From Temnopleurus reevesii (Eukaryota; Echinodermata; Echinoidea; Temnopleuroida; Temnopleuridae), in the NCBI GenBank assembly GCA_036244855.1, contig BQKZ01000159.1:81024-145023 (forward strand): a DNA stretch of 64,000 nucleotides, given 5' to 3'. The position numbers and the translations under genes were made by a program. The notes beneath the pieces were generated by a model. The model made no database searches and was not told the origin of the DNA. It worked only from the letters and a program-made list of their open reading frames with translations. Shown here one piece after another: positions 3,301 through 35,800 of this stretch; the first letter of the stretch is position 1; every line of letters starts with the position of its first letter.

Positions 3301-5280
3301 CACATTCACAGATGGAATCTTTGACCAGGAGGTGTCGGAACATGACCCAAAGTGCATCGGATTCAGACGTGGCATCATCAAGTATAATGTCATGAGTAAT
3401 AGTACTGGGAATCTCTTCCAGCTGATTGGTTATGAAGCTAGGATTCAAATCAATGATAGCTTTCCGTTGACCACACTAGGTAGGTATTAGAACAATATCT
3501 CATCCTCACATTTTGATTACCATGCTCTAACTCATTCAATGGGAGAAGTAAAATCACTATCCTTCTTGATCATGCCCGATACACGCACGATATCCATCAC
3601 CATCCCTCTTTCCTCCTCCTCCTCCACCTCCCTCATCTTATCTTCCTTCCTCTTCTTTTCCTCCCCTCTCGCTCCTCCTTACTCTTCACCTCTTTACTCT
3701 TCTCCTCCTTCTCCATCCTCCTTTTGCATCTTTTTTTCATCTTCTTCCTCTTCTTCTTCTCTTTCTGTATCACTCTCTTGAAAGGCAGATCAGAGATCTG
3801 TTTTAAAAAGGGTTGTAAACGGGAGAGTGGAGGGGGGAAATCATTTCTGTAGGATTTTTTAAAGCATCCCGCAGAGGCAGATACTAGTACTGGGAATCTC
3901 TTCCAACTAATAGGTTATAAAGCTAGGATACAGATCAATGATAGCTTTCCGTTGACCATGCTAGGTAAGTATCTCATAGGGCAGTCACACCAACAAACAG
4001 ATCCCATCCTGCTGTCATACCGCATCAACAAAATTGTAATTATCACTGTATTCTGATTGTAATCAGAATATTTCAAGGCTATTTTTCTTAACATCAATCG
4101 TACAAACTCATTGATTATTCATCAATGCATAGTTCATTGTTCGTATTTAAGATGAATCTGTACTTGGAGGTCGAGATAAGACTTGTAGGTGTGACTGCCC
4201 CAGTTATTGGTAAATAGATACCCCTTATCCAAATTGGATAGTCCCGACTCATAAAAATTCTTCGTTTTAGCTATTTTTGTATATGAATCCTTGCAAACGT
4301 ACAAAATAGCAAATTTAACAACTTTTGAGCATTCGTAGTTGTCTTTCATAAAGCTGTTCGTATAGATCTAGAACTACTCTACGAACGATTGGTGACCATT
4401 TCTCAGGTGCGATGTTGGCCCTAGGAGTTATCATTGACTACAGGAAAGGGTCACCGGTTGTTCGAAGTGTTGTGCGTACATCTACGAACATGAAACACAA
4501 CCCAGGTTCATCAATGACGGAGGGTGGTGGTAATTTCCTCTACGTATAGGCGTTTCTTTCCCCCAATGTATGGATGCCAAATGTTCTGAAATATGCACGA
4601 GGTGTGTATGCATGTACATTCGATTCTTCAATCACAACTGAATCACTCTTGATTCCATTATTGTTTTCTATTTTTGTTTGGTCCAGATCCTGTGGTATTT
4701 ATATCACCTTGTGAATATTTCGGAATGGTTGGTATCCTCACAAATTGTCCGTGTTTTCACGAACTGACGTGAGCCAAAGGGTATTGTTGCATGAAGACAA
4801 ATAGAGCGCCAATTTAACAGGCATACTATCGAACAACGTGTAAATTCTATAGAAGGACACGTTTCAATGGATTTGTAATACATTTCGTGCTACAAAATGT
4901 AACATCTTCGTCAAACCACGTACAAAATGTTCCGACAAACAGGTCGATATGCATAACATACCTGTTTAAAACGTCTGGACTAAATGAAGGGAAATTTTTT
5001 TTTGTAGGCTAAATCATCACGTGAACTTATATAGAAATTCGGTAAATTTGTCCACATTCCTTGTACTTCGCGTTCACAGTGCTGGTATGCAGAAGAAAAA
5101 AAGATCATAGTACGGGTGATTATTGCCAGAGACACTCTGATACACCACGTGTCTCTAGCGACTAAGGACTGCTCGAAATATCACACCTTTGGTGCTGTGA
5201 CCCTATCAATAATTCACACTCCGCTCGGTGCATGTGCCATGCAAGTCTTGATGGCGAAGATGAGTGCTAGCAAAGGATGA

Positions 5281-5337
<57 letters not shown>

Positions 5338-8300
5338 AGAGCGAGGAAGAGAGAGAGAGAGTTAAGAATGCTTAGGAATTGCTGTAAAAGTCAAATTAAA
5401 ATTTTTACTGAACATTTTAGAGCCCAGACTCGATTTTGAGACGACATGAATGATTATATTGTATGATATAGGCTAAAGACTTCCTCCAATATTACACAGA
5501 CACCATAGCCGTAACCACATTGATTAGACATATAATTTCCATGCCGGTTTCCTTTTTCCTTTACGAATTTTGGTATCCGCAATAATCGTTAGACTCTTTC
5601 AAATGACAAATATTGTTAAGATTCGATATTCGCCCTTGCATATGTTTATTCTCTTCTTTCTTCAATCTAGGTATAAACAATATTTATTTCTGATGTTAAA
5701 ATATGATAAATAAACCATGCCTAAATAAAAAAAAAATCATAAAAATAGAAATTTCACAATGATATGTACTACAATTTACTTTATTCATAAAACTATGATT
5801 AGTGTGTAATTGTGCCGAAAGAAACTTTCCTGGTACAAAAATTGTCAAAACATCTTGATGCTTTGCTATTTCGTGTTTGTTATGTTTCCACTGCGTGCTT
5901 CGTTGTTATCTATATTAGATGTGAAGTTGATATTCTCATTTGTTTATTGCAATTCATGCTGCTAAATCATTTCTTTTTCATTTTCAAGTGGGGGGTCAGG
6001 ACATGTAATTCATTTTCTAACTTGACATATATTTATGCTAGTTTATTGTAGACTCATGTGTTATTCAATAACCATATGCATTGCTGCATTGTATATATAC
6101 ACACAATTCTATTCAATTCAATTCAATTCAATTCAATTCAAAATGAAAGTCCGAGGACTAATAACATTTTGTTTACAAGCAAGACATAAAATAATCAAAT
6201 CAAATGAAAAGTAATATGTACATTAAAAAGAGGACAGTCCTACAATTAGCAAGAAAAGAGATATAGATAAGAGTAATTGAGAGGAGAAGAAGAAGTGTCT
6301 AGATCTAGGATGAGGGGGAAAGAGAGGATGATGAGAAGTAGGGGAAAGGGAGAAAAGACAGAAAATACGAAGAAAGGAAAAGTAGAAGAAGGAGAAAAGA
6401 AAGAAGAATTTGAGGAAAAAGGAAATAACAAATGACATTAGAATTTGAACCAAGAAATACACATTTAAATGGAACTGGGGTTTGGTTACTGAAAATATAA
6501 TGGACCTGGGTTTATGATATGCTGATTGGGTTTTAGAGAATAGAAACTGCAGGAGCGTTGATATTCTTACAAGAATAAAAAAAAAATTGACATGAAACTA
6601 AAATTATTGCTATGAAAAAGTATGAGGAGTAATGGTGGACCGGAATTGCATTTCAATTGCACAAGAAAATTCAAATTTGAATATATTATAAAACAGCAGG
6701 ATACAGTAGATAAAATATGGAATAAAATTGAGTTGCATATACAAAAATCAGGGCTTAATTACTAACTAAAAATATATATATATACGCCCGAATTTGTGAT
6801 GAGAGGATTAAAATGTATAAATGAAAAAAATTTGTCATGAAATTTATTAATTAGTTTGAAATGGTATCCCGGGAATGGTAATGATATAAAAGACCAATGA
6901 TTATACAGATAACTGAAATTCTACTGCAGAGGGAAGACAGACTGTTAAAATCACCCCTGTCCAAAAAGTGCTGGGTAATAAAATTATTTTTGCATACTAC
7001 CAATCGACTTTTTTTCCTCATCATGATGCAAAATCATTGTATTTTGAATAGGCCTGTGTATTGAAAGCTTTCATGTGATGCTGGAATTAAAAAAAAATCG
7101 TTTTATATTTTGACACCAAACCGTCAAGATAGAGGTGGTTGAACATACATGAGTAAGAATGGAATTGCATTTTGTTGTTAATCGTTTATTTATTTTAAAT
7201 GTTTGTTCTTTGAATGTTTGTATTGGAATTTGGAATTTATTCATTTGAACGTCATTGACATGTACATGTACATGTATTGACGGAAAATAAAATTATTAAT
7301 TTGAAAAACGTCAATCAATCAAAGGGAAAAGTCATGGTCAATCACTCGTACATGCCCTTGTCTTTTTGCAACAAATTACAAATCTGATATTACAAAATCC
7401 TTCTAAATCTATATAGCACCGTGGTTATTGTTGCTATGTATCAAATAAGCTTCAGGCTACTACATGAGGTGACAACGATTTGTTTGGTTAACATTGCCGA
7501 AAAGACCAATAATTTTCATGGATTATACCCTTTTTCCCCATATTCATTTTCTCTCTAGTATGCCGAGCTCTGAGTGAGAACTACGTGCTGCTAGCCGGTG
7601 ACTCTGACGTGAACACCATCTATACCGCCGCCTTCACTAGCCGCGAGGTGAAGATCCCTTACTTCGTAACAAGCTTCGCGCCACGGGATGTCTATGCGGA
7701 CTTTTCATCCGAGTTCCTGCTGGCCATGCAACCCGAGGTCCTGCAGCCCCTGGTGGACTATATAAACTACTTTCACTGGACTACTCTGGTGTATATTTAC
7801 GAAGGGCAGGAAGGTAGACATAATTTACTCGATTTCTGTTTTTTTGTGATCTTTCATTATAACTTTCCAGTTCATATCACTCGAATTATGTTCTAAAATT
7901 ACATTATCCTACCTTTAAATAATATGCATATCGATTGTGATTGTTGCATAAAACACTGATTTGTATTATTCCGATATGTTTTGATAATTAATTTATTGCT
8001 TGATCGTGATTAGACCTATTACTAGACCAACATTAATCTTAGGAAAAAATGAGCGCCTTTTACCAGATTCTGCTCGATCCAATTGCCACTTAAACCTGAA
8101 CCAATTTCCATTACCAGATTGTAATGCTCGCACATTTCATGACACAGAGAGATTAGTTAATCACCATACAGATGGTTTTTCGAGGATCGTCCTTTTTGGG
8201 ATTGCAATATTTGCCCAAGGAAGGGTTTTATCACCTTGCATACAAATTTATTCCACAAGATATTTCCCAGGAGCTTCCCCCAAACTTAAAAAAAGATCCG

Positions 8301-11300
8301 TCAGTCAAATTAAGATTCAAGGTACAAGGTTAATTTTCAATTACTTTTCTTTTTTCATAGGTGCACATCATTTGTTAACATGAATATGAACAAAACGACA
8401 ATAACAAACACAACAGTCATTATTGTTATTGTTATTGTTTTATTATTTTCATCACCGGCAGGGTTTCTCCGCCTCCACAACCTGTTGGATCTGGTCCGTC
8501 CACTAGGCATCGACATCGATCATCGTCGGATCTACCTTGACACCGTGAACGAGACCCTGGTCGAACTCAAGGAGACCGGTAAACATAGGATCATATGCGA
8601 CGCTCGTCTGGATATCACTAAGGCTGTTTTGTCTACGGTGAGTATCTCTTGAAATCATTATCTATGTTGCCTAATCATTATAATTTAATGTTCAAATCGT
8701 AAAAAATGTTATTGAAATATAAAAATAAATCAAATAATATAGAATAAGGTAACGCCTCTTCGTAGTGAAATCAGTTCGTAAAGTAATAGATAATCCCGTA
8801 AAAGTAGTCAATAGCTTTGCCACGGTACTGTGAGCACACTCCAACATATGTCCACTCGCTTGACAATAACCAACATAGCTCAACGAAAACTTACACATCG
8901 CTCCGAGGTTTCAAATAAAGGAATATAGATATTATGAGATGAACTATGAAAAGAAGCTGCTCGTGTCATCTTAAATTGGTTCTTAAAACTTAATTCTTTC
9001 AGTCTTTATACTTCTTATATTTAAGATGTTATTTTTGCATTTCACCTCTTGCAATTCAGAAACCATTACATCATTACTTATATCTGCCCAAATGTACAGG
9101 CTATGGATCTGGAAATGGTGACTGCATCATATCACATTATCTACATGAATTTGGTAAGATTATTCATCTTCTACGTTGGATTTACATGTACTTGTACACA
9201 ATAAAGTCTAAAGATTGTCATGACCATCACCATTATTATAATGAAAGAATAAAATCTTTTGATCACCTAGCATAACTACTACCATTCTCATTGGAATAAT
9301 AATTTGTACTGAAAAATCAAAATTCTATTACCAAGTTTATCATTCAAACATTATTACAGCTAAGATAACAAACCAATCAACAGTTCCCTCTTAGGCCATC
9401 CGTAATAAACACGGATCGATTTAATTCTGGAATTTGTTTCAGCTAAAACCCCGATTCAACACGGCTCAGCACGATTCTTTGTCAATATTCATCGAGTCAA
9501 GTCCGGGACAAAGATTCGTGTTGTGTCGTGTTGAGTCGGGTCCTCTATGTGACTGGGGCTTTACTACGATAATGTTCTTTTCCTCTGTAGGATTTTGATA
9601 CCATCGATACAAGTAACATGTCATTTGGCGGTATGAACCTGACGGGCTTCTCACTGATTACAAACAAAAGCAGTGAAGCATACCAAGATCTCTTTAATTG
9701 GTGAATGAGCGGCCAAATTCAGACAATAATCATCGTCATTAACAAATATAATAAGAGTATAAAGTGTTAATTGTTTAATCACTTTCTATTACTACCACCA
9801 TTCTCATTGGAATAATAATAATCTGCACTCAATAATTAAAAATCATTACCGCTTTTGTCATTGGAACATTATTACTGATAAGATAAACAAACCAGTCAAC
9901 ATTTTCCTCCTAGCCCATCCGTAATATAACTAATTAATTCAGTTCTAACATTATTCCAGTCACACAGAGTCCCGATTAAATACGATTCTTTGTCATTATT
10001 CATCGAGTCAAGTCCTGGACAAGGATTCATGTTGTGTCGTGTTGAGTCGGGTCTTCTATGTGACTGGGGCTTTACTACGATAATGTTCTTCCCCTCTATA
10101 GGATTTTGATACCATCGATACAAGTAACATGTCATTTGGCGGTATGAACCTGACGGGGTTCTCATTGATCACGAACAAGAGCAGTGAAGCATACCAAGAT
10201 CTCTTCGGTGATTGGGCGGGAAGATCTAGAAAATAACCATCGTCATTAATCATCGTCATTGTACTGAAAAATCAAAATTGTATTGCCCAGTTTGTCATTC
10301 AAACATTTTTCCCTGATTATATAAACAAACAAATCAACAATTTCCTCTTAGCCCATCTGTAATAAAAACTGATTCATTAAAAGCTAGAATTTTTCTCCGT
10401 TAAAGTCCCGATTTAAGACGACTCAGCACGATTCGTTGTCATTGTTCATCCAGTCAAGTCTTGGACAAATATTCATGTTATGTCGTATTGAATCGAAGCT
10501 TTTATGTGACTGGGGCTTTACTACGATAATGTTCTTCCTCTCCATAGGATTTTGATACTATCGATACAAGTAACATGTCATTTGGCGGTATGAACCTGAC
10601 GGGCTTCTCATTGATCACAAACAAGAGCAGTGAAGCATACCAAGATCTATTTGGTGATTGAGGAGCCAAATTTAGGAAATCATTATAATAATAATAATAA
10701 TAATAATAATAGGGTACTTTTAATGCGCCAGATTCCACATGAATAATGTGCTCAAGGCGCAGGACAGGAAAATTTAAAGAGAGGTAGAAGCAATAGGTAC
10801 AACAACAAAAAGCACAAATAGATAAGAAATGAGATATATATGTGTAGATACTAATTGAAAGCACTTATGAACAGATGGGTTTTGAGCGTCATTAACATAT
10901 GAATAAAATCATTTGATCCCATTCTATTACTACCAACATTCTTACTGGAATGATAATTTGTATATCTTTTACCGAGTTTGGCATTGAAACATCATTACTA
11001 TGGGATAAACAAACCGATCTACATTTAACACGTACATTTGCGGTTGTTCATATAGGTAGTGTTAATAGTACGGAAGTGATTTTGCGCAATGTAAATAGGG
11101 CGCGCACCGATGTGTGCTAGGAAGAAAAGTATCCATAATGCTCCCTGAGATAAACAATCGTAAAGGCACGTACTCTCTACATAATGATAGAATTTATTTC
11201 AGCTAAATACAATTATGTTTTCTCCTCTGTAGGATTTTGATACGATAGACACAAGTAACATGTCATTTGGTGGTATGAACCTGACGGGGTTCTCACTGAT

Positions 11301-14037
11301 CACAAACAAGAGCAGCGACGCATACCAAGATCTGTTTGGTGATTGGGCTGGAAAGTTTAGAGAGTCTAATCCAACACTGGCCAACGCAGAGGTCGGGGTA
11401 AGTAGATGTTTCTTTCTTTTCTTCAGCATGGTTTTGTTCGTTTTATATAGTTATTTTACTACCGACTGTGCCCTTCATGGCAGCCCAGAGCTGTGTTTCA
11501 CCAAATCGTTTGACAGTTACGAACGACTTTAAGAAAGGCTGGAGTACGTTAACGAGTGTGTACGCAATACGATATACACTATTTCCGTAAAATAAAGTGG
11601 GGCATATATTATAGCCGTACGCCGCGTATGCGGACACAACGATAAAAACCGGGTCCGATTTGAATAGCACTAAAAACATGAAAAAGGCCCATTAGAGAGG
11701 CGTTTGGCTTGACTATATACGGAAAAAGGTTTATATCGTGTTACACGTGACATCCTCGATCATTCGGCACAAAAACTGATACCAGTCGTGCCTAAAATCG
11801 TTCTTGAAGTCGTTCGCAACTTGGTGAAACACCACCCAGATCCTATTTTTACCCATATCTCAGCGAACAACACTCGCAAAGAAATCGCTCATGAAACCTT
11901 TTTTTTCAGTACCTTTCTTCAGTACTATTACGATGCAATATACCCATTCACGATCTCTGCGGGGTGACAGTAGCTGCAGTCCATAGTGTTAACGAGTCGA
12001 GTGAAATATTATCCATCGGGATTTTTGCTTTTTCTTCCTTTCTTTTGCCATAGTACGAGGCCAAACTAGCACATGACCTACACAGAGTGGCACTACCTGC
12101 GGTCCATTGTGCCTATGAATCCGTCGGATATTCGTCTTTCGTAAACTCGGTCTTTTTGTTCTCTATCTCCTTTCCGAAGTACAAGGCTGAAGGATGAGTA
12201 TGACTACTGTCTACAACAGCTACGAGTCTGGCAGACATTTGCCGCTACCCGTTATTAATCTGAACCCTTTCCTCTTCTTCCATAGTACGAGGCCATACTT
12301 GCGCACGACCTATGCCGTGTCACAGTCGCCGCTGCCCGGAACATTTATGAGTCCGGCAAACAGTTACCACTACCCTCAATCACTTCATACCATTCATGCT
12401 ATGAGGAGATGAAGGTAGGGAACGGGACAGAGATCAGAACCAAGCCCTCTGTGGTAGGACCAATCCTACTAGATGCGATCAAGAGGGTAATTACAAACTT
12501 TGATTACTACGGACGAATAGCGCTGAAGAGCGCCAAAAGACTGCCGAATGGTGCCTAAGAGATGCCGAAGAGTGGCAAAGAGTGTCGAATAGATACTCGA
12601 CGGCAATCTTTGGCACCCTTCGGCACGCTTCTGCTTTTAGTATGACCGGAAGCATGCAATGTAGAAAAATCAATAAAGAACTGCTGTGTTTGGTCTCAGA
12701 TTGTTAGACACACCGTTAAAATTTGAGAAACGGGAGACAGTTTGTTCAACGATTGTTCTGGTATCACGATTTATTTCTGCTTTAACTATTCCTCTTTGGT
12801 ATTTTTTGTTACTTTTTAGACGGCATCAGATCAGTTGAGTGGCAGAGTTCAGTTCGATGAGAATGGTTCAAGAACCAACTATTCTCTCCAGATTCTTGGT
12901 CTTCACAATGGTGTAGTGCAGCAGGTGAGAATTATTTCGTGGTTCTGTGAAGTATGTGTGATCCCGTTTTCAGATATTTTGTGATCATGTCTCACTGTTG
13001 TCTGGTCTCGCGGTGGTTTAGTCGATATACGCAGACTTGCTACATTTCTGTGAGCAGCCTTTACTACTTCCACAGACTCGAATGCTATTTAAGACGTTAT
13101 ATCTACGGGGAGCCAAAGTGGAGAATAATGTGCTCTGGATACAATGAGGTGTTAGGGGCCTTACAAGTCATTTTGTTTAGAAAGTAACAACCTTTACCAA
13201 ATGCGTAAATGACCGCTAGCATTGCTTACCGACAATATCATGCCACCGAAATTTTTCCGACAGGAAATCGTTCCGGCATATATAGAATTTTTGAAAATCT
13301 ATTCTCGTCCAGTTATTCACATTACTTGGTTCACAATCAACAGAGACACTTCGGTATGGTTGAAATTGTTTCAGTTGAAATCAATCCCATCCCTTTTTAA
13401 GAATATCAAATTAACATCTTATTCTTCTATTTAAAGCATTCTCTCTTATTAGTACTCACTATATGCATGTTGAAACGTATTTTAAGGAATCTTTATAATA
13501 TTTGCATAAGAATTGTTCAAGTATGATTACTAAAATACCATTGGACATTATGTATTACAATTAGGAATAAAGGGTTATGTAAAATTTCTTTCTGTTCATC
13601 TATAACTTTCTCTCAATATCATTTTCGACCACATTGATGTCCCAGCGTTAATATGTTGTCTTACCTTTCCGTATACGCCCACAATCAAAAATTGATTATT
13701 ACGGTATTTTAAGTGTAGATCGCGACCAGACTAAGTTATACTCAATTAGTGTTCTATTGTAATTATTATACAAATATTCAATCAGATTAAATTCAAAATA
13801 ACATTTCTTTATATATATTGATAAATTGTTTTGCATTTTTTGTTTATTCATCTGTAGGTTGGTACTTGGAGTCAAAACAGTGATCCTCCGATCTACTTCT
13901 TTGACAGTGACACACATGGCCGAAAGGGAAGTCATGATTACGAGAATAGGACATTTGTCATCACATCGGTGTTGGTAAGAAATCAAAATGGCACGTTGAA
14001 AAAAAGAAACAAGAATAAGACAAACAGGAAGAAGAGA

Positions 14038-14093
<56 letters not shown>

Positions 14094-14099
14094 TAATAA

Positions 14100-14130
<31 letters not shown>

Positions 14131-17100
14131 AAGAAGAAGAAGAAGAAGAAGAAGAAGAAGAAGAAAGAGCTTCAGATGGGAATTGAATCATTACATTTCT
14201 GACTTGCTTTGTAATTTTGTTCGTCCGCCAATAGGGGAATGGAATATGTTCGTCTGGTGTCAAATCAAGGCATTGCTGCATAAAGACAAATAAATGCCGA
14301 CAAAGCAACAATATAAAGGACGCCTTTTTGCAATACCCGTCCGCTAATTTATGAAGTACACGTTGGCAACCATCAGTTTTTGACAACACAGACGATTTAT
14401 CATCTAGGGTTTGGCTCTCAGCTGTCAAGTCGTTCAAATATGGTTATGGTTATCATGTTGCAAGTACTTTGATGATTTCAAATGTGGTTCTGAAAATTTC
14501 TCCACTTCATACCTTGAAATTAATTACGCCGACGTTTTGTATACAGGACGATCCGTTTCTTATAAATGTCACCGGCCCCAACGGGGTACCCCGGTTTAAA
14601 AGATTTTCTGCGGAACTGATCTTCTCAAGAAGATTGTTGAGATCTATCAGTTCGAGTAACGGATAAGGATTTCAAATGTATTTCTGATAATTTCTCCACA
14701 TAATACCTTAGAATTAATTACACTCATGTTTCTTATAGGACGATCCGTTTCTCATTAACGTCACTGGGCCCGACGGGGTACCTCGGTTTGAGGGATTCTG
14801 TGTGGATCTTCTCAAGAAAATCGTCGAGATGTATCCGTTCAAGTACTGGATAAAGATTCTAAATGTGTTCCTGATGATTTTTCCACATAATACCTTTAAA
14901 TTAATTACACTCATGTTTCTTGCAGGACCAGCCGTTTCTCATGAACGTCACTGGGCCAGACGGAGTGCCCCGCTTTGAGGGATTCTGTGTCGATCTTCTC
15001 AAGAAGATTGTCGAGATCTACCCGTTCAAGTACAGGATACAACTGGTTAAAGATGGCCAGTATGGCAAGATGCAGAAGAACGGGAAGTGGGATGGTATGA
15101 TCGGAGAGCTTATGTATGGGGTAAGTAACATTTACGTTTATGATTGTATTTTCCTTTATATGAACAGAAAATTGATTTTTGATGTCAATGAAGTTTAATA
15201 AATCAATTTACAATTTACATTCCCAACCTATAGAAAATGAACCAAGCCTGAAATGTCTTTGGAAAACCATTTGGAAAGGAAGAAACGGTCTGATCGTATT
15301 TATCAGACGCCATTTATATTTTCCCTTCATCAGAATATCTGTCATTCGAGCTTTGTAGCCCATTGACTACTGAATTTATGTATTCCATAGACTTTGTACA
15401 AGGACTATCGGGTTCCAGTAGCCAGTGGGTTAGTAAGTGACTGTTTCTGGCCAAGGTTTATGAATAAAATATACTTTAGAGTATCAATACTTTCAGATAG
15501 AAGGCCACATAGATAAAGGCCTTTGGATTTCATCATTGTTAGAGTGAGACAACTTGGGCTCTTTAAGAATTTGTTAAATAATAAGTGGAACCGTTCAAGT
15601 ACCGGATACAACTGGTTAAAGATGGACAGTATGGCAAGGTGCAGAAGAACGGGAAATGGGATGGTATGATCGGAGAGCTCATGTATGGGGTAAGCTTGCT
15701 TCTACCTAAACCATGCGTTAACAGGTTAATGTGTAAATAGACTCTAAGAAATGCATGCGAGTATTTTTCACTGTGGTGAGCGTCAGGCAAATTAGGATCT
15801 CTAACCTGTTTTTCATGACCAAAGAAGTACAAATCGCTCCTGTGCAAACAAAACGTTTATTCCTTATTCAACAGTTAGATTGTCGTCATTATAGTGAGTC
15901 CTCAAAAAGAAAATGTGATACAGAGAGAGACAAAAAAAATATACGGAAGAACGATATAACTGAATGTGAAAAAAGTTATGTGGATACACTGTCCAATTAT
16001 CTCCATGTATTTGATGGATCTTGAAAAACATGAACAGAATTCCACCATATGGGTAGGTTATACCCAAAGATGTTTTAACAGAATGTTACCTTTTTCCAAC
16101 GCCCTAAGAACGAATTAAAATGATAGTATTTGTCTTTGCTCACAGATTGCCGACATTTCACTCGCTCCTCTGACAATCAACACAGACCGTGAACGCGAGG
16201 TGGCGTTCACCAAACCATACATGAGCTTAGGAATCAGTATCATGGTCAAGAAACCCAAGAATATTCGACCATCAGGATTCTCTTTCTTCCAACCATTCAC
16301 CAATGAGATATGGATCTGTCTTGCCCTAGCTACGTGTGGAGTCAGTATGATAATGTTTCAGGTGGGCTGATTTCAGAAGTTTCAACTCCAACCTAGTCAA
16401 AGAAGATACCCACAATCATGATATTGAAGAATAAAACACTTACGGATTTTTATCAGCAGGACTTTTAACCCTTTAGCTGCTCTGTATACTGCACTCCCTG
16501 TGCAAAGTTTATTTTGTGCGGCTCCTTGGAGTGGTTTTTAAAACTCTTTGATCCTTTTCACCTCTATAAACTGTTTTCTGCTTATCGTATGAAAAAATAG
16601 CCTGCTAATTCCTAAGCAGGATGTGAGAACAATACAATAGCTCCAGATTTAATCTGTACGATATACACAATAGTAGTACACAGAAGGTGTTATTGCGATC
16701 GCGTGTATACACACACTTAGCACTCCTGGATAGACCAGTACACATGCATGTGGCACGTTAAGTGTCAAAACAATAAAGGGCCTCAACAAAACTTTGTGAT
16801 TTGTGCACTAGGCCACAACTCCTGCTATTTTCCGAAATGTTTGAAAATAAAATATTCGTAAGAACAAATGGTGCAGGAAGTCCCAAATTTCTTGCTTTAG
16901 ATATGTAACATTTGTATCAAAAGATGTTATTACCATGTGTGTTCCATCGCAGTCAGAATACATTGCAGTCGAATGATGTTCCAAATGAGAAAATGAGAGC
17001 AAGGTCTCGGTAGCAGGCTAGGGTGTGAAATGGAACAATGACTTATACGTACTATAGGGGCTTTGTGAAAAGTTTTGTTTAAACATTGGAAAGCAAAATA

Positions 17101-20100
17101 AACTTTAATCTATATTTTATCTGTCCTAGATATGTCGATTTAGTACCTCAGAGTGGCGAATCGAAACTGACAACTCTGCGGATGATGTTTCAAATGAGAA
17201 CAGGGTCTCGGCCGCAGGGAAAGGTGTGAAATGGACCAATGATTTCTATGTACTAAATAGCTTCTGGTTTGCACTCGGCGCCCTGATGCAACAAGGGAGT
17301 GACATTTTACCCCGGTAAGTAACCCCAAAACAACATTATATCTTAGAATTTTCTGACGTTAGATCTCGATGGCGAGAGGTATGGTAGTTATTCATCGTCG
17401 TCATAAATAGTCTATACCTTATTTTGTCTACTGATATCATCATTTTATTATCTTTTGTTCATTCAGATCTATATCTGGTCGTGGGAGGAGTATGGTGGTT
17501 CTTTACCCTCGTCACCATCTCGTCCTACACGGTTAACCTGATGGCAGCGTTCCTTAACACACAAAGCATGCAGTCCCCGATCAAGTATATTAATCATGTG
17601 CCTTCATTGTTTGATATATTTTATTATCATCAACATTTTGTGCATGTAGGTCTATTTCCGGTCGTATTATGGGAGGTGTATGGTGGTTCTTTACCCTCAT
17701 CATCATCTCCTCCTACACGGTTAACCTGATGGCAGCGTTCCTCACCACACAAACCATGCAGCCTTCCATCAAATCTATTAAATTAATATTTGAAATTGTG
17801 TATTTATTGTTTGATCTCTTCTTTTATCATTCATATTTGTCTCATTCAGATCGGTATCTGGTCGAACCATGGAAGGTGTCTCGTGGTTCATTTCTTGATT
17901 CATTTTCTCGATTGAAGAGATATCTATCAAGTTGCTATTACCTTTAATAGGTGATTTACATATTCTTTTATGCTATGTTTATTTCAGGTCCATGTCTGGT
18001 CGAATCATGGGAGGAGTATGGTGGTTCTTTACCCTCATCATCATCTCCTCGTACACTGCTAATCTAGCAGCGTTTCTCACCACACAAAGCATGCAGTCCC
18101 CGATCAAGTCGGCTGAGGATCTGGCGGCACAGACTAAGATTCAGTATGGGGTGCACAAGGGAGGGTCGACAGTCGAGTTCTTCAGGGTAAACACTGAAGT
18201 CTGTAAAAAAAAATCTATTCGAATTTTCATCAATGAAAATTTGGCTATATATGCTGATATTGAGGAAGCAAAGTTCAGTATTCTAAGCAAAGTAAGTGCT
18301 AGTGCGCTGTTATTCATTTTTGACACCACTTTCCACATTAAACACGTGGAACCAGTAAACATATTAGGTACACATATGATCCTGCTTTTTGACTTTCACA
18401 GTACATGCGCCAGCCAGTTTGGGATATGTGGACAGATTAAAAAATGCATGTACCTCTGTTTTGGGTTCACACGGTCTCGTCCTATTCTATCTCCTGTCTT
18501 TTAACAATCCATGCCCTTGTCATCAGCTGGTCATACAAAGGCCCAATCTTACATTTTCGTTTACAGCCAAAGTATGTTCAGCGATCATGACATATAAAAG
18601 ACGCTCGAAGAATGCAAAAATGCGTAATGAAATCTTTACTCAAGTTGAAGTGTGTGTATGTCTCGCACTAGAGGGATACTTTCAACGTCGGCCAAGTGCC
18701 TTCCATCCGTATTTTTGCGTTCATGGAGCATCCTTCCAAAATAAGTGAATAATGGGCAGACACAAGGTGAGCATATTGAAATTGAAGACACAGAAGTTTC
18801 GGCTGCAATTGTTAAAAGTCGTTACAAAACAATACTACATTTCGAATCTGTATAAGCTTTGCTTTCCTTTCAAACTCTACACAGAAATCCAAGCACCCTC
18901 TCTACCGCAAGATGTGGTCCTTCATGGCGAACACCGAGCCCTCCCCGCTGGCAGAGAGCACGGAGGACGGAGTGAGACGGGTACGGGAGAGTGATGGCAA
19001 GTACGCCTATCTCCTGGAGTCCAAGATGAACGAGTATAGAGAAACACAGAAACCTTGTGACACTTTGGCAGTGGGTGATCCACTAGGGACCAGCAGCTAT
19101 GGTATAGCCGTGTCGAAACACCTAATCAGCCTACAGTAAGTGTGACTTGGATAGTGCATGCATTGGGTGTGTAATTGGTTAAATCAGGTTGGTTGGGTCG
19201 GTTGCATCGTTGGATCGGTTAGTCAAGTTCTTTTTTTATATCCGTCATCAAATCAAATCACATCAAATCAAATCAAATCATTTTATTTTTCAGCTCTTTT
19301 GATAATTCAAATGTATACAGTCATAAATAATAATGTTAATATGACAAAAGAAATGAAAAGATTCTGAGCCAGTGATTGGTCTAAATCCCTTTTAGTGGCT
19401 ATTGATAAGTCCTACCGGCATCGAAATTCCCTTAAATGTGACATCATACGTAAGTAGTTCGGGAAACTATCTACGTCTTCCCTGATAAACTATTACCGGA
19501 GTGAGACGGGTACGGGAGAGTGATGGCAAGTATGCCTATCTGCTGGCGTCCAAGATGAACGAGTATAGGGAAACACAGAAACCTTGTGACACTCTGTCTG
19601 GCTGTAGGTGATCCACTAGGGTATAGCCGTGTCGAAGCACCTGATCAGTCTACAGCAAGTGTGGCTTTGACATTGGCTGTGTGAATGGCTGGAGTCAGAG
19701 TGCACCATATTTCTCTTTTAAACACGAAGTCGTCAGTTTAACCCCGTATGAATCTAAACAATGCAGGCTTTTGTAAATCCAGGAATACATTTAAAAGTGA
19801 GATCTTCTAATTTGTTATCTTTCTTTCTTCGATTTAAGAAAAAGATAAATTACTGCTAGTCTGCATAGGCCCTAGAATGAATACATATAGTGCCAAGACC
19901 TCGGCCTTAAGAAATGAAAAAAGCTGACATGCTAGTTGATAACAGATGAACACAATATTACTTTCTATGTCCCTAATCGTACCCCCCCCCCTCTCTCTCT
20001 TCAAATTGATTACCTCTGGTTCTCCAAAATATGATGAAGTCCAAGATAGCTTATATATTACCAGAAATTGGTTTTAGCTGTATTGGATGGAACAGGATTA

Positions 20101-23100
20101 TCAAAAAGGTAAAATATACGAATAGTTCCTTCCGTTACTCCATTGTTTGGTTTGACCAAGATATAAAGAATATCTCTGTACTGGCTAGGTAGCAGCTTCT
20201 TTTATTCTCTACATTGATAAAAACACTCTGAACACGATATATAAACTATTTCCGAAAAATTAAGTCAAACGCAGACAGTAGATCCGTACGTCATGTATTC
20301 AGCTGTGCGGACACAACAATGACAAGCCGGTTCCGATTTCAATAGCATTACAAAGGAGCATTGAATTTGCATTTGACTTCTTTTTTTTCGGAAATAGTTT
20401 ATATCGTGTTTCTGATTCATTCCATGGTGTCCGCTTCACCTTTGCAGAAAGGAACTGACGGTGGCCATCTTGGAATTAAGAGAAAGAGACATCTTGCGTC
20501 GACTGGAGGAGAAATACTGGGTGAACAGATCACAGTGCGTCACTGACATGACGGACTTGGTAAGTATTTTTATTGATGCGTCACTCGATCTCACAAGACA
20601 GCGTGATTCTCAACGAGTTAGTCTGCCCTCAAACTTGCATTGAGTAGAAGTAGAAAATCAGCCGAATAGATAAAATAAAAATATTGAAATAAACCGGACA
20701 ATAAGAAAGTTAAGATTTTTTTAAAATGTCACTAAACAATGATTTTTCATGCCTGTGCTTGTCCACTCCGTGTGCCATTGAAAAGTATACTCTCAAAGCT
20801 TTTGTACCCTCAGCAGACAGACAAGTACTACTACCTATTGTAAACACGTGGCCATCAAATTGGCGAATTTATTAAAAGATGCAAATTACACTCAAATTAC
20901 TAACTCTACACACATTTTTTGTTTTTTACAACTCGAAAGCTAGCCAGACGATTTCCAAAAACATTGACAAATAATGTATACAAGCTTAATTTAGAGGTCA
21001 ACGTTTGATATTCAAAAACACCAACTAAGTCCGTTAGCAAGAAGAGTACACCGATTTGAATCTTTTAATCATGGAATAAATCCATGTATTTATAAACCGG
21101 CCTGCTGGTAATCATATATGCACAAAATTACCGTCGTAATCAATGCCGAATCCAATAGCTCTAGTTCAAGTTTAAATTCAAGTTCAAGTTCAATAGCTCT
21201 TGACATTATTTATCCTATTCCAAGACGGACACAAAGGCGTTATACCTGAACAAACTGGCCAGTGTCTTCTACATCGTGCTAGAAGGGACAGCTGTTTGTC
21301 TGTATATCCTGGTTGGTGGAAAGATTTATAATCTTCTTTATTTTTATGAACCGTCCAACTGATTTATAATTTTACTACGTCACCAAAATAAATAATTATC
21401 ATTATCATTTTTTTTAAGACGGACACATGGGCCTTAGACTTGAACAAACTGGTCGGTGTCTTCTACATCCTGCTGGGAGGGACAGAGCTGATCTACCGAT
21501 CCAATCGGGCCGGTCCAAGCGGGCAACTTATAAGGCCCCAGTCACATATGGCCCCGGAAGCAGCTCGATTCAACACGACTCTTTGTTAATTCACAGTTAA
21601 CTGCCTAAGCACAAAGAGTCGTGTTGAATTGTATTGCTTCCGGGGCCTTTTGTGACCGGCGCTTAATCTTTTTCTTAAATCTTTTTGATTTTGAATAACT
21701 ACTAAACTGATTCATAATTCAACTACTTCCCCGAAATAGATGATTATCATTATTTTTCCTATTCCAAGACGGACACAAGGGCTTTGGACCTGGACAAACT
21801 GGCCGGTGTTTTCTACATCCTACTAGGAGGTACAGCTGTAGCCCTTCTGGTATCCATCATAGAGCTCATCTATCGGTCCAAGAGACTGGTTTGCCAGGAA
21901 CTCAGGTCGTGTGGTCTTAGAAGGATCTGGCTCAACCTACGCGCTAGGATTGCACATGTAAGTAATATCTTTTTAGAAACAAAAATATTTCAAGTCTCAT
22001 ATTTTCTATTATTTTGACAACATTGAAATAATAGATTCATATGTTTACATTGCAAGTGACGCATCTTTTAAATAGAAAATATTTTAAGTTTCATATTTTC
22101 TACCTAGTAAGAACAATGAAGTAATCAATTTATTAATTTACATTGGGAGCGTTTGATCGCTTGATAGTTCCATAATAATTTATATAGCAATTATTTTTTA
22201 CGGTTCTGTTCTAATCAGCTTGGTTGTGAAGAAATTAGTTTTGGTTCGTGAGAGTGGTCCTCTTAATCTTGCAAACGAAGCAAAATAATGGTCATTATTT
22301 GATTATATTTTCAAATTTAAATTTGAGTTTCGTTTTTCAAGAAAACGAATGATTTGTTTTTATTTTTTCTTGGGTATATTTTTTACGTATCTTAAAGGGA
22401 ACAATGCATGATGATACAAGGTGGAAATTTTGAATTGTATGCATCCAACATGTATGCATCTTTTGCTCACTGACACTATGTTTTGACACGGCGATTTGGT
22501 GTGTTGACGAAAAAAATCATAATTCACTTTTACTTTTATTAGATTCATGATCAAAGTCCAATAATAGTATTCTACTAAAGGTATTATTTCCATTTTTATT
22601 TCGAAAATTCCTGCATCTACCAACACCGTCGTTCTCGACATTTTATTTTTGACACCATCATCACAAATCAGGAGAGATTGGTAGCGTCTCTTCGTCGTCG
22701 TAGCATGCCTGCACCTACAAAGTCGCCCTCTGACGGTACATCTGAGACAGGTACTGATGAGATATCAACACCGGCTACAACGCAGAAGTCAATTGTGCCC
22801 TCGGTGAGTTGAGATGATAAATAAAAATTTAATTTTCTACGTAGTTCAACAAAATTTAATCTTATTATTTTTAATTTTACTTTATGGTTAAGATTAGCTA
22901 ATCATAATGATACTTGAATCTACATAACGCCTTTTTCAAAAGATACAAACTCAAATCCTTAAGCTCCTTTTTTCACATCACTTCAGTTCGACAAACGTCA
23001 GCAACATGTTATGTTATTTTGTTTTAATAAATATTGCTTTAAAGGTTAGCCATTACATTATAATTTGATGCATTACAACGCCTTTTTTTATTCAAGTCGT

Positions 23101-23489: not shown

Positions 23490-24097
23490 AGATGGTGAAT
23501 AAAGCCCGTCCCACCCTGGGCGCCAAAATTTATGACGTAGACCATGCACAGCTGTAAAGTACTAACTTATTAGCTTTGTTAATATATAATATAAAGCTGA
23601 AAATAAATATCAATGTATGTATACCCAACATGTCAATAAGTAGATGGAGTATAAAGCCCGTCTCACCCTGGGTGCCAAAAGTATGGTGTAGACCATGTAC
23701 AATTGTATAGTGCTCACATATTGCTTCTGTTCATATGTAATATAAAGCTGAAAATAAATACCAACGTCTGTATACCACACATAATGTAAATGAATTATAA
23801 AGACCGTATCAACCTGAGCGACTATTAAAGCAAGATGTAGACCAAGTATAACTGTATAGTATTCACTTATCGCCTCTGTTTATATGGAATACAAGGCTGA
23901 AAATTAATACCAATGTCTGCATACCACACAGAAGGTTAATTAGTAGATGGAGAATTAAGCTTGTCTCACCCTGGGCGCCAAAAGTATTTTGATGTAAATT
24001 ATGTACAGCTCCCGTATATCACATCTGTTTATATGTAATATAAACCTGAAAACATTATATCGATGTATGTATTCCACCACAAAGGACAATTTCTAGA
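23490..24097 (+). repeat. Four tandem units of about 150 bp in the AMPA receptor 3' UTR
   Basis: Units begin near 23490, 23642, 23796 and 23944. Each shares taaagcccgtc, a gtagacca block, ctgtttatatgtaatataaa and (in three units) ctgaaaataaat-like ends, with clear divergence between copies. Several units carry AATAAA or near versions, so the array multiplies possible polyadenylation signals. Confidence 0.9.
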
Positions 24098-31170: not shown

Positions 31171-32350
31171 TTTCATGCCAGCATGGTACGCTGAACCGTT
31201 TTATAAAGGTTCAAACCTTTCCGTTATCTCAACGAAGCCTCATCATACTGCTCGCGAAATAGTATACTGATTTTTTTCAAGATGGTTGTTAAGTAAGTCA
31301 CGATGGGTTTTGTATATTGCCTATTGATCCAACATAAAATACAATTGATGCAGATTCATGCGTGAATTTGAATAAAAACGAAGAAATACTTTCCAAATCA
31401 TTGAAAAGTTGATGAGGGAATTCGGAAAGTTGGAACGTTGTCATGTTGAAATTGGAAAGGAAAATACATCATTTTCCTCTTAATTGACTTATGAATGTGC
31501 ATATAATGATATTGACTGTCCATTCGATAATAATATATTTCAAATATACCGCAAATATTAAATGTTTATAGTTTACAACTCTGGACATGGCAATAAATTC
31601 ATGTCTTTATACCACGGCGACATGCATGCCATCGGATATTCATAGTATAAAATATTCAGTTTGCAATGCAATACTTTACAGCTATGTAAATCAAGTGTAG
31701 AAAAAGAAAACGGAATAATTGTTTCGTTGCTCCGACTACAATTATAAAATGGCTAAATTCTTAAATATATTATATCTAGTTCATAACGACGGGGCTACTA
31801 ACCGTTGTAAATTTGACGCTCTGCTTTTGAAACATAATGTTTTTATTTCGGACAAAATTGAGATGTTTTGATGATGCAGGAGACCAATTTATGATTTTTT
31901 TCTCATCCCGTTTAAATTTGCTCATTTTAGCAATCGACACTTAATCTTATCAATTTCTGCCCAAAATACTGCCTTCGAATTTTGTATCACAAGCATCAAA
32001 ATTTAATGCTTGTTCAATGTATTCAGGTCAGGTGTTTTGGTATGTTAAACATTTTAAAGATCTCTATCAATCCGACATTAAAACACTATTTTCAATCATT
32101 TAAAATGTTTCACGCCAACAATTAAGTTTCCTTAGGCATCGGAATGACAAGCTTCACTAAACGATTCAAATGTATGCAAAAAAAAAAGAAGAAATGGAAG
32201 AAGAAAGAAAAAAAGGGAAACAATATCCCTTTTAGCCTACTTGGGAAGACAAAATTAAAGACAAAGGTTAATATTAATAAGTCCTGGCAGAACTTTTCGA
32301 TTTCACTTGAGAGGCGTAGTAGGCAAATGCACATTTTAGATTTTTTCTTG

Positions 32351-32356
32351 TTTATT
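32351..32356 (-). terminator. Candidate polyadenylation signal of the GABA receptor gene
   Basis: AATAAA on the minus strand, about 130 bases after the stop codon at 32484-32486. It is the first good match downstream of the stop. Not confirmed. Confidence 0.45.
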
Positions 32357-32483
32357 CTGTATTTATGTGTACACGTGTGTAATGTCTCAATAAGCCCAAT
32401 AACAATCTTAAAAAACGAACAATTTGAAACGGTTAGCAGCCCCGAGTAACTCATTTAAATACTTGTATATACATCTGTAATAA

Positions 32484-32891
32484 CTATTCATGCTTTGATT
32501 TGTTAGGCAATACATAAAGATACCCGACCCAATACAAGACATTAAATACTAAAAACGTTAAAGGGAAGAGGATTCTGGACACTCGATCCACTGTATTTAC
32601 ATTTCGGATCTTCGGCAAAACTCGTATCTTCTTCGGTTTCTTTTTCCGCCGTCTCGTGAGGCTCGGGTTGACGTTCGTGTACCGCGGTCCGTATGTGTTA
32701 TTGCGCACGTTGTTCTGTGCGTTGCTCCGGTGCTGCGGTCGATACGTCAGCGACGTTCGACGGTGACATCGGTCGTTGCCGTTGAGGGCGTCTAATCCTA
32801 TGCTGTTCTTCATATCGACGTCGTCTGCGTTGTCATCCTCGGAATCGAGTTGGGAGAGTCGGAGAGCCACCTGAGGGTTGAATTGCTGTAA
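32484..32891 (-). CDS. Rdl-like: GABA receptor final exon: cytoplasmic loop end and M4
   Basis: Acceptor CTCATAG (an alternative TTACAG 6 bases on is also in frame). Encodes [16 protein letters not shown], an Asn/Arg-rich loop, a strongly basic [18 protein letters not shown] segment, and M4 ([27 protein letters not shown]), ending at TAG. The [10 protein letters not shown] start matches IDKWSRIFFP of GABA receptors. Confidence 0.9.
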   Translation of the reverse strand, partial: LQQFNPQVALRLSQLDSEDDNADDVDMKNSIGLDALNGNDRCHRRTSLTYRPQHRSNAQNNVRNNTYGPRYTNVNPSLTRRRKKKPKKIRVLPKIRNVNTVDRVSRILFPLTFLVFNVLYWVGYLYVLPNKSKHE

Positions 32892-35800
32892 CTATGAGAA
32901 GGGAAATGGATTCGTAGAGAAAATACAGCCAAAAACGAATAAGTCTTCCCATATATTTTCTGTTTGTCTCACCTTGTTTTATTTCCAGACTTTCAAAATA
33001 CTGATATATTAATGATAAGCCAAAAAAAAAACATTACATTTTTAGAAGTGATGCATGAAGACTAATATATCCTGACATAGCACCAATTCAAGGATCATCC
33101 TATTGAAATACATGTAAGTTCAATAGAAGAATACGTTTCCATTAAAGTGCATCCCTAGTGATGGATTCGCCTTACATTACCCACCCCCATTAACGTCAAT
33201 TCGTGATAACACAAACAGATGAACCCTCCCATGCCATATTGCAACATAGACTCATTCTTAATTTCTTCAGGACACGCGTATAAATCAATATCATGCACTG
33301 GCCATATGAAGTAAATGTTATAAAATATTTCAGGATTAGATTCTGTACTCAAGAACGATAACTTTTTGGAATTATGTTGCTCATTCTCAAAACCTAATGG
33401 CCATTACACGATGTCCCATAAAATTATAACAAACACATGCCTGAAGGAACTGAGAGTGACGTCTTCAACTAAAGTTGGCTATTTTATTTTGCATATATGG
33501 AGTGTAGATTTTGATACTTTTTGTTAGCAGAATTATTCAACAAATCATGGAATATGTTCAATTTAAAAAAGGGAAAAGCTGTTGACTAATCTGCAAGTAG
33601 AGACATTGCTATTGTCTTCCTTTGTCGCCTTTGGTCTTTGGTACCTAGGGCATAACTGAATTAAGAATGGTTTTACCATACAAAATTAATAAACCGTGTA
33701 TGAATCTTTAATTTCAACCATAGATATTTGTGCTTTTTTCACATTTAAGGGAAAATAAGAAAACTACGACAGGTGAATCAATGGAAAACGAACGTAATTT
33801 TGCTATGTTGCAATACTTGTGGCATGGGAGGGTATATATCAAGACCCACATACCTATCAATTCTGCTCTGTGCACAAACTTCTCCAACAATGTAAAATCA
33901 TGATTCTGTTGTTTTTCAATTCACTAATTTAATTCTTTAATCTGTCGTTATGTCATATTATAATTAAATCGAATGTTTTCGCTAAACTTTTAACAATGAA
34001 AACCACGAATGGCTATCTTAATCCACGCAGAAAGACCATTACGGAATACCACTAATATTAGAATTCGAATTCTAACAAATAAACCTCTAAGCTAAAACGG
34101 TTTCCTTTCCAAAGGCATGTCAGCAGAAACAGTTTACTGAGCCATTCATTCCAAAAGAAAAGGCAAATAAAAAATTTGTCACAAACGCACCCTTCTAAAA
34201 ATATAATCATGGCGGCCCTAATCATCTCATCAATATGTTTAGGCTCCTACATATACCAACCTGATCATATCTGACTTCGGGCTGCTTTTTACTATTGCTG
34301 TTCGATGTTGGTTGATTCTTGATCCCGTGAGCCTCCCGGACTTTCTTCTTCTGCTCCGACCAGTAGTTGAAGTTGACGATAGCGTATTCGACCAGGGCTG
34401 CGAACACGAAGGAATAGCAGGTGATGACGTAGATGTCGATGGATTTGACGTAAGAGATCCTCGGGAGCGACTGCCGGACCGCTGTGCTGATCGTGGTCAT
34501 CGTCAGTACCGTCGTTATACCTGGGTTGGGAGAGGAGCGAGATAAAGAACAAGAAATATGAGATTGTGTGTGTGTAAATGGTGAAACACAATAAAGGGGT
34601 GAATATGGACACATGGCACAATTGGGACTAATCCCGGACCGCTGTAATGATCGTGGTTGTCGTGAATACCGTGGTTATTCCTCGGTTTCGACGGGAGTAA
34701 GATAGAAAGGAGTGAACATAGAGTCTGTTTGTGGCAGTATGTTAATGTTGAAGCGTCGTAAAGGGGTGAATATGGACACATGGGGCAACTGGGACATACC
34801 CGGGACCGCTGTAATGATCATGGTCATCGCCAGTACCGTTGTTATACCGGAGTTGGGACGGGAATAAATTAAAAACAAAACAGTAAAAATGAGACTCTGG
34901 TTGTGGTAGGCTGTTAATGATGGAGCTCGGTAGAGGGGTAAATATAGACACATGTGACAATTTGGACAAGCTCAGGAACGCCATACTGATTGTGGTCATA
35001 GTCAATACCGTCGTTAAATCTGGTTTGGGAGGGAAATGAAATAAAGAGCAGTGAACATGAGACTCTGATTGTGGTACTATGGTAAAGGTGAATATGGACA
35101 CATGGGGCAATTGGGACGAATTCCAGACCGCCGCACTAATCGTGGTTAGCGTGAATACGGTGGTTATACCTAGGTTTAGAGGGAAGTAAGATAAAGAACA
35201 CCGAAGATGAGACATGGGATTATGGCAGTCTATAAATGTAGAGGGGTGAATAGGGACACATGGGGCAATTCGGACAAGCTCAGGACCGCCATACTGATTG
35301 TGGTCATCGTGAGTACCGTGGTTATACCTGGGTTGGGAAGGAAGTGAGCTAAAGAGTAGTGAACATGAGAGTCTGATGGTAATGTTTAAGCTCTGTAAAG
35401 GGGTGAATATGGACATATGGGGCAATTGAGACAAAGGCCGGACCGCTGTACTGATCATGGTCATCGTCGGTATCGTTAGTAGTAGTAGTAATGGTTTATT
35501 TATTGAATTGAATGACAATTAAAAACATTTCTTGCAGCCAAAGGCTGAATTGCAAATGTATTTACAAAAAATCATTTAAAATACAAAGAATACACATATA
35601 TAAGTAAAAATACTAAAAATACACATATAAGTAAAAATTTGAAAAAATACACACATCGTTGTTATACCTGGGTTGGGAGGGGAGTAGGATAAAGGACAAG
35701 TAACGTGCGATTCTGTTTGTAGGAGTGCGTTAATGGTGAAGCATCGTAAAGGGGTGAATATGGACGCATGGGTCAATACGGAGAAACTCCGCATCGCCGT

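Follow-up and report, generated by a model that had tools for sequence, protein, structure and literature searches.

Truncated copies of its own exons lie in the introns of an AMPA-type receptor gene of the sea urchin Temnopleurus reevesii

We analyzed a 64,000-nt stretch of the 558 Mb genome of the sea urchin Temnopleurus reevesii (contig BQKZ01000159.1, here C159, positions 81024-145023; hereafter the window), the first 24 kb of which contains an AMPA-type glutamate receptor gene. The introns of this gene contain 13 strong partial copies of the gene's own exons. The copies are always truncated and differ from the neighboring exon mostly at synonymous sites, and the kind of exon 6 that is broken in the window is intact on a second contig, C7399. 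The synonymous bias and the exon 6 swap do not support the original prediction insofar as it sees in the copies nothing more than failed duplicates of the adjacent exon. Our favored explanation, which we hold with about even confidence, is that unequal exchange between haplotypes that had diverged gave rise to the fragments. Other genes in the genome are subject to the fragment-forming process as well.

Partial exon copies in the introns of the receptor gene

The gene model has 15 exons (numbered 2-16) with AG/GT bounds and consistent phases, and its product is 863 residues long. Each exon was compared with its adjacent introns by Smith-Waterman alignment (+2/-3/-6/-2). As a null, the exons were compared with all non-adjacent introns on both strands, and the maximum score in these 420 comparisons was 28. 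We accepted strong copies in the receptor gene at a score of 55 and copies in other genes at 36. The 13 strong copies score 74-215, and the null thus rules out chance similarity as their source. They belong to 7 of the 15 exons: one copy each for exons 2, 12 and 14, two each for exons 13 and 16, and three each for exons 6 and 10. All exons and copies are on the forward strand.

Exon 2 (3312..3479), intact in the model, is followed by 2a, a copy of its 3' part with the donor GTAAGT (3882..3964, score 121, 89%). Upstream of the intact exon 6 (11233..11397) lie three copies of its 5' part: 6a with a 4-nt insertion and a stop (9591..9723, score 161), 6b (10102..10230, score 188), and 6c with a stop (10548..10676, score 181). 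The intact exon 10 (14926..15120) has two upstream copies of its 5' part, the frameshifted 10a (14547..14665, score 91) and 10b (14739..14852, score 158), and one downstream copy of its 3' part, 10c, with the donor GTAAGC (15591..15689, score 173, 95%). The copy of the intact exon 12 (17130..17314) is an internal piece, 12a, with an 8-nt insertion and a stop (16970..17054, score 74). The intact exon 13 (17988..18186), which contains SYTANLAAF, has two strong copies of its 5' part, 13a with a 5-nt deletion (17468..17586, score 144) and 13b with a 3-nt insertion (17650..17775, score 147). The intact exon 14 (18885..19135) is followed by 14a, a copy of its 3' part with two frameshifting indels and a GC donor (19497..19654, score 215, 94%). 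Two copies of the 5' part of the intact exon 16 (21769..21957) are 16a (21225..21295, score 87) and 16b (21419..21485, score 84).

Exon-intron similarity at the exons listed in the original prediction was thereby borne out by the alignments. Its count of 17 copies stood in part. The 13 strong copies and one more copy of exon 13 (13c, 17857..17909), which is weaker with a score of 42 and clear of the null, are real, whereas the three claimed for exon 7 (12286..12486) are at or just above the null. Two of the exon 7 pieces score 34 and 32, and gentler scoring gives three pieces of 36-52 nt with 68-78% identity (11949-11998, 12054-12105 and 12215-12250). No adjacent-intron match scoring at least 26 was found for exons 3 (7559..7813), 4 (8462..8637), 5 (9100..9153), 8 (12820..12924), 9 (13858..13974), 11 (16146..16361) and 15 (20448..20559). 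A stop or a frameshift is present in six of the 13 strong copies (6a, 6c, 10a, 12a, 13a and 14a). In the other seven (2a, 6b, 10b, 10c, 13b, 16a and 16b) the aligned part is free of both, yet these copies are truncated as well.

Truncation geometry and breakpoints

The strong copies cover 35-78% of the parent exon and none is full length. As no strong copy spans its parent exon, each lacks at least one parental splice site. Mutually exclusive exons would have both splice sites and a compatible open frame in every copy; we therefore rejected ordinary mutually exclusive exons, in agreement with the earlier claim that the copies are not of this type. In the flip/flop exons of AMPA receptors and in Dscam, tandemly duplicated exons are spliced in a mutually exclusive way. 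The present copies are likewise tandem, exon-sized duplications within a gene, but they are missing a splice site together with part of the exon. Exon 15, which we take to occupy the place of the vertebrate flip/flop exon, is without a copy here, while an exon covering that position on another contig, C2713, has two partial copies.

The side on which a copy lies matches the part of the exon that it contains. All ten upstream edge copies (the weak 13c included) consist of the 5' part of the exon with the acceptor AG kept. The three downstream edge copies consist of the 3' part together with a donor, GTAAGT, GTAAGC or GCAAGT. The exception is 12a, which is internal to exon 12 and located upstream. 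Tandem duplication with a single break inside the exon would leave both this pattern and one complete exon. An edge fragment may accordingly be pictured as the product of a short tandem duplication or an unequal exchange with a single break within the exon, which would yield the complete exon and a fragment without a splice site. Such a fragment would presumably be ignored by splicing and hence be tolerated.

The duplication steps at the locus are ~140-690 bp; the exon 10 unit, to which 10b belongs, is 187 bp long and in register, and the exon 6 units are ~450-690 bp. The earlier proposal of local tandem duplication is supported, and so is that of a high copy density. Several arrays carry intron flank together with the exon part. 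Since intron flank was copied along in the arrays of exons 6, 10, 13 and 16, we discarded the idea that they arose in a purely exon-directed or RNA-mediated way. At exon 10, the heptamer CAAGTAC occurs near the upstream break and the in-exon break (14461, 14840 and 15027, with a two-base variant at 14653). Its placement, seen by eye in this one case, could fit microhomology.

Codon positions of the differences

Comparing the copies with their exons, we counted 40, 33 and 153 mismatches at codon positions 1, 2 and 3, respectively (17 copies, weak ones included). When variable columns were counted once, the numbers were 23, 20 and 84 in the receptor gene and 24, 25 and 79 in the arrays of other receptor genes. 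One alternative to haplotype exchange is plain decay, in which the fragments were copied in place from the adjacent exon and have drifted neutrally since. By our estimate, a free copy facing a constrained exon would give a third-position share of at most ~46%. The observed shares are in excess of that value (84/127, p = 4e-6, in the receptor gene; 79/128, p = 2.5e-4, in the other arrays), and they also exceed an expectation of 50.5% (p = 3e-4 and 0.007). Faster third-position mutation, with 60% expected, would nevertheless remove the significance (p = 0.09 and 0.38).

The ratio of nonsynonymous to synonymous change (dN/dS) was 0.10 (0.06-0.16) between copy and exon and 0.16 (0.10-0.42) between copies in the receptor gene. 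At three other receptor loci the corresponding values were 0.13 and 0.23. All of these are under 0.5 and speak against neutral drift of the fragments. In favor of decay, the copies do have stops, frameshifts and truncations, and the pseudogenic exons of mammals show copy-parent Ka/Ks values mostly below 1, and mostly within 0.25-0.75, in the parts of Morais and Harrison (2009; PMC2718932) on which we draw.

We also separated variants shared among copies from those private to one copy. In six arrays of at least three copies, third positions account for 50 of 69 shared variants and for 30 of 66 private ones (p = 0.002). The private changes are thus nearer to neutral, as decay would have it, and exceed the 22 expected at one third (p = 0.03). 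In two larger arrays of myosin exons elsewhere in the genome, 5 of 10 and 4 of 10 private changes are at third positions, with no clear bias. Shared variants that are synonymous and private ones that are nearer neutral suggest that most of the older variation arose in a working exon and that recent change has been less constrained.

The acceptor-bearing fragments could instead be functional, serving as alternative last or truncating exons with their frame under selection. Retention of the AG in every acceptor-side copy would be in line with this. So would the divergence among copies, which in overlapping pairs is 38/202 at third positions, similar to the intron flank (91/500), and threefold lower at positions 1 and 2 (24/405). 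In a separate set of flank comparisons, the use of local alignments understates the flank divergence. Moreover, over the first 35 codons, 6a-c differ from the exon of the window in a single residue, E29. On the other side stand the stops and frameshifts in six strong copies, the exon 16 copies, where constraint is not apparent between copies, and the unbiased-looking private changes of the two larger myosin arrays. A search with a 262-residue truncated product found no relative of similar length at E<=1e-10, which is a weak test. Selection on the copies as exons was our initial reading. It was downgraded by the myosin private changes and by the element swap described below, and we now consider it quite improbable.

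Element-bearing and element-free exon 6 on two contigs

A palindromic element with 57-nt arms, 82% complementary, lies 3' of copy 16b (21530..21667) and has relatives in six other loci. Related elements are found in the exon 6 array, in the 6a unit (9445..9563) and at about 9956-10074 and 10402-10520; the window elements score 61-79, against a shuffled maximum of 28. Relatives of the element precede not only 6a, 6b and 6c but also, on C7399, the intact exon 6 (61-82 for the four scores). We searched for the element before the intact exon 6 of the window and before a broken exon 6 copy of C7399, and it was absent from both (scores 17-20). The element-bearing exon 6 is broken in the window and intact on C7399, and for the element-free exon 6 it is the reverse. 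The flank of the intact C7399 exon aligns over 270-278 nt with those of 6a, 6b and 6c, compared with 63 nt for that of the window exon. Residue 29 (site 87) tracks the element: the element-bearing sequences, 6a-c and the intact exon of C7399, have E, and the element-free ones, the exon of the window and the broken C7399 copy, have D. The element, which serves here as a mobile-element marker, shows that 6a-c were not copied from the adjacent exon as it now stands. This argues against plain decay in place, which, with the codon evidence on both sides, we regard as unlikely.

C7399 holds exons 2-8 of the receptor gene, and the remainder of the contig reads N. In a search with a protein of Strongylocentrotus purpuratus, exons 2-4 and 6-8 of the receptor gene were found on C159 and C7399 only, among the matches listed. 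C7399 may represent the other haplotype. The window has three copies of exon 6 and C7399 has one; the window has one copy of exon 2 and C7399 none, a counterpart of 2a having been sought there and not found. Between the intact exons 6 of the two contigs, 16 of 55 third positions and 1 of the 110 remaining positions are different; between the exons 2, 9 of 56 third positions and one other site are. In comparison, the 791 nt of exons 3, 4, 5, 7 and 8, taken end to end, differ at 6 third positions and 2 other sites. With ends trimmed, third-position differences are 25/111 in exons 2 and 6 and 5/261 in exons 3, 4, 5, 7 and 8 (p = 3e-10); exons 3 and 4 are largely within a stretch of exact identity between the window and C7399, which may be assembly collapse. 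Between C2713 and its haplotype contig C6258, exons with copies differ at 3/252 and 13/570 sites and an exon without copies at 0/231.

Exchange between haplotypes could produce the arrangement at exon 6. An element-bearing chromosome broken in exon 6 would be joined to an element-free chromosome whose break lies in the intron upstream, and the product would have an element-bearing fragment ahead of an element-free intact exon. Such an exchange would set the exon pieces of one haplotype beside the exon of the other, and it could switch the working version. Fragments derived from another haplotype would differ from the neighboring exon mostly at synonymous sites without ever having been exons themselves.

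Several observations weigh against this explanation. The swap is documented for a single exon, and for genes in which only one contig was read, haplotype exchange is assumed. The element split is followed by just 1 of the 13 shared exon 6 sites, and the rest are in conflict with it or among themselves; sites 39 and 57 show all four combinations (by eye). Over 113 common columns, the intact C7399 exon has 7-8 differences to 6a-c and the window exon 9-11, and the broken C7399 copy is nearest to 6b (6 differences), not to the window exon (10). E29 need not be ancestral either: S. purpuratus and Lytechinus variegatus have E and Diadema has D, so that neither residue is surely ancestral. With a mismatch to the window that is a mosaic of 0% to ~25% or more, C7399 might be a paralogue. 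For three other contig pairs the difference amounts to only ~1-3.5% in stretches of >350 nt (14% in one 90-nt piece). The failure of the exon bodies to sort with the element slightly lowers our support for haplotype exchange. The site conflicts and the 113-column distances suggest that flanks and exon bodies partly differ in history, which fits repeated exchange and not a single event. Because those three contig pairs differ so little, ordinary allelic divergence is weakened as a source of the synonymous bias, although at this locus the two contigs differ more.

We also considered that fragments of a second haplotype were misplaced beside the exon during assembly. The assembly does have separate haplotype contigs with exactly identical stretches, the sample may be pooled from several animals, and the differences between fragment and exon resemble those of diverged alleles. 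However, 2a matches the exon of neither contig (9 and 7 differences in 83 nt), nor do 6a-c (8.5-13%). The arrays are in register with intron flank, and C7399 has a truncated copy of its own. An artifact is thus very unlikely in our judgment.

Exon copies in other genes of the same genome

The original prediction treated the copies as a peculiarity of this locus, and this was not supported. In other receptor genes, local copies were found for 3 of 16 exons of the paralogue upstream on C159, 2 of 7 on C2713 and 5 of 6 on C666. By the same procedure, no local copies were found for the receptor exons on C4417 (0/4) and C1876 (0/1). Among myosin exons taken regardless of copies, two of six had copies (one merely a 30-nt piece), and among neighboring exons none of three. 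These sets add up to 12 of 43 exons with copies, compared with 7 of 15 in the receptor gene (p = 0.21), or 6 of 15 under the procedure for other genes. C6258 and four myosin exons that had been selected for their copies are left out of the 43. Of the nine myosin exons included, three are neighbors in loci fetched for exon copies, and the sample is small, covering two gene families. The receptor locus is not clearly special in copy density.

Larger arrays belong to two myosin exons that were chosen for their copies. At C3849:36001-40000, seven 5'-part copies lie upstream of the exon, in steps mostly near 200 bp. The array of eight at C31:116501-125500 consists of a near-full-length copy 1.1 kb off and seven 3'-part copies in steps near 180 bp. 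The upstream paralogue (C159:10-40 kb), a second AMPA-type gene, has two exons duplicated whole, 98%, ~2.3-2.4 kb apart, and the 3' end of its exon 10 is present in four partial copies. A tally of exons by Pfam domain gave copies in 4 of 64 groups for myosin and in 1 of 13 for channels; this is a rough check that misses most fragments.

When the window was cut into 120-bp tiles, the share of tiles with a local duplicate was 0.37 in the receptor exons, 0.22 in its introns (copies included) and 0.05 in the rest of the window. Per locus examined, the share ranges from 0 to 0.46. Among 74 local pairs in 278 kb of partly chosen loci, the repeat spacing peaks at 160-220 bp (24) and 320-380 bp (12). 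These peaks lie near one and two nucleosome lengths and are suggestive of nucleosome-sized steps. As a separate observation, 35% of the tiles at 32000-36000 of the window are locally duplicated, a density equal to that of the receptor gene.

Relation to known exon duplications

Pseudogenic exons have been described in four mammals, where they attend 0.4-1.0% of genes and ~55% of them have 0.9-1.1 of the parent length, according to the parts of PMC2718932 used here. That share of genes is a stricter measure, made at the protein level and confined to copies with stops or frameshifts. Of the known kinds, this is the closest to the present copies. They too lie within or near the parent gene, 13 of them above the null, some are disabled by stops or frameshifts, and the copy-parent ratio is below 1, as it mostly is in the mammals. 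By comparison with the mammalian figures from the same parts of that paper, they are denser (7/15 and 12/43 exons affected, subject to the stricter mammalian measure), and the strong copies here are never full length. A further difference is that the intact kind of exon 6 is not the same on two contigs. Intron gain and internal duplication by tandem genomic duplication, as presented in the parts of PMC4974935 on which we draw, similarly involve a break inside the exon. There, however, a new intron or a longer protein results, while here the extra piece stays intronic and neither was seen. Our literature searches, in the portions of the sources that they returned, turned up nothing on such exon-fragment arrays in echinoderms.

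If these loci are representative, a sizeable share of the exons in this genome would be flanked by their own truncated pieces, apparently well above the share in mammals under the stricter measure of PMC2718932 (in the parts cited above). The fragments would then offer a direct view of tolerated exon duplications, those with a single break inside the exon, and would call for caution in gene annotation and in dN/dS studies over exon fragments. A different working exon kind on two versions of a locus would represent a step between exon duplication and loss that, in our judgment, is rarely caught.

A more far-reaching version of haplotype exchange can be put forward tentatively. The working exons and intronic fragments might form one exchanging pool across much of the genome, in which haplotype exchange or conversion cuts fragments from exons and returns synonymous variants to them. 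It is possible, although we would not expect it, that exons with fragments then accumulate synonymous changes faster than those lacking fragments. It is just as doubtful whether untranslated fragments would feel a second-hand purifying selection, since a bad fragment could convert a good exon. Under such selection, private changes would be near neutral and shared ones synonymous, as observed.

The receptor gene and nearby repeats

The product matches GluA1 chains over residues 45-839 of 863, through the ligand-binding and channel parts (E ~1e-169), and GluA chains are top-ranked. Residues 400-863 are 90% and 89% identical to the L. variegatus and S. purpuratus proteins named glutamate receptor 2, respectively. 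The gene is an ordinary sea-urchin AMPA-type receptor gene, apparently intact, with fragments of its own exons in its introns. The gene extent originally given, 3312-21957, matches exons 2-16, and two further C-terminal coding exons follow at 22669..22809 (tblastn, 87%) and 23373..23459 (tblastn, 79%) on the forward strand, the latter being the last coding exon found.

Past this exon, at 23527-24052 of the window, there are 3-4 tandem units of ~150 bp each. A dispersed ~200-bp repeat lies directly 3' of copy 6c (10678-10893) and has at least 38 genomic copies elsewhere (91-98%). Another dispersed repeat of ~300 bp, in the intron preceding exon 12 (16465-16774), has at least ~40 genomic copies elsewhere (89-94%).

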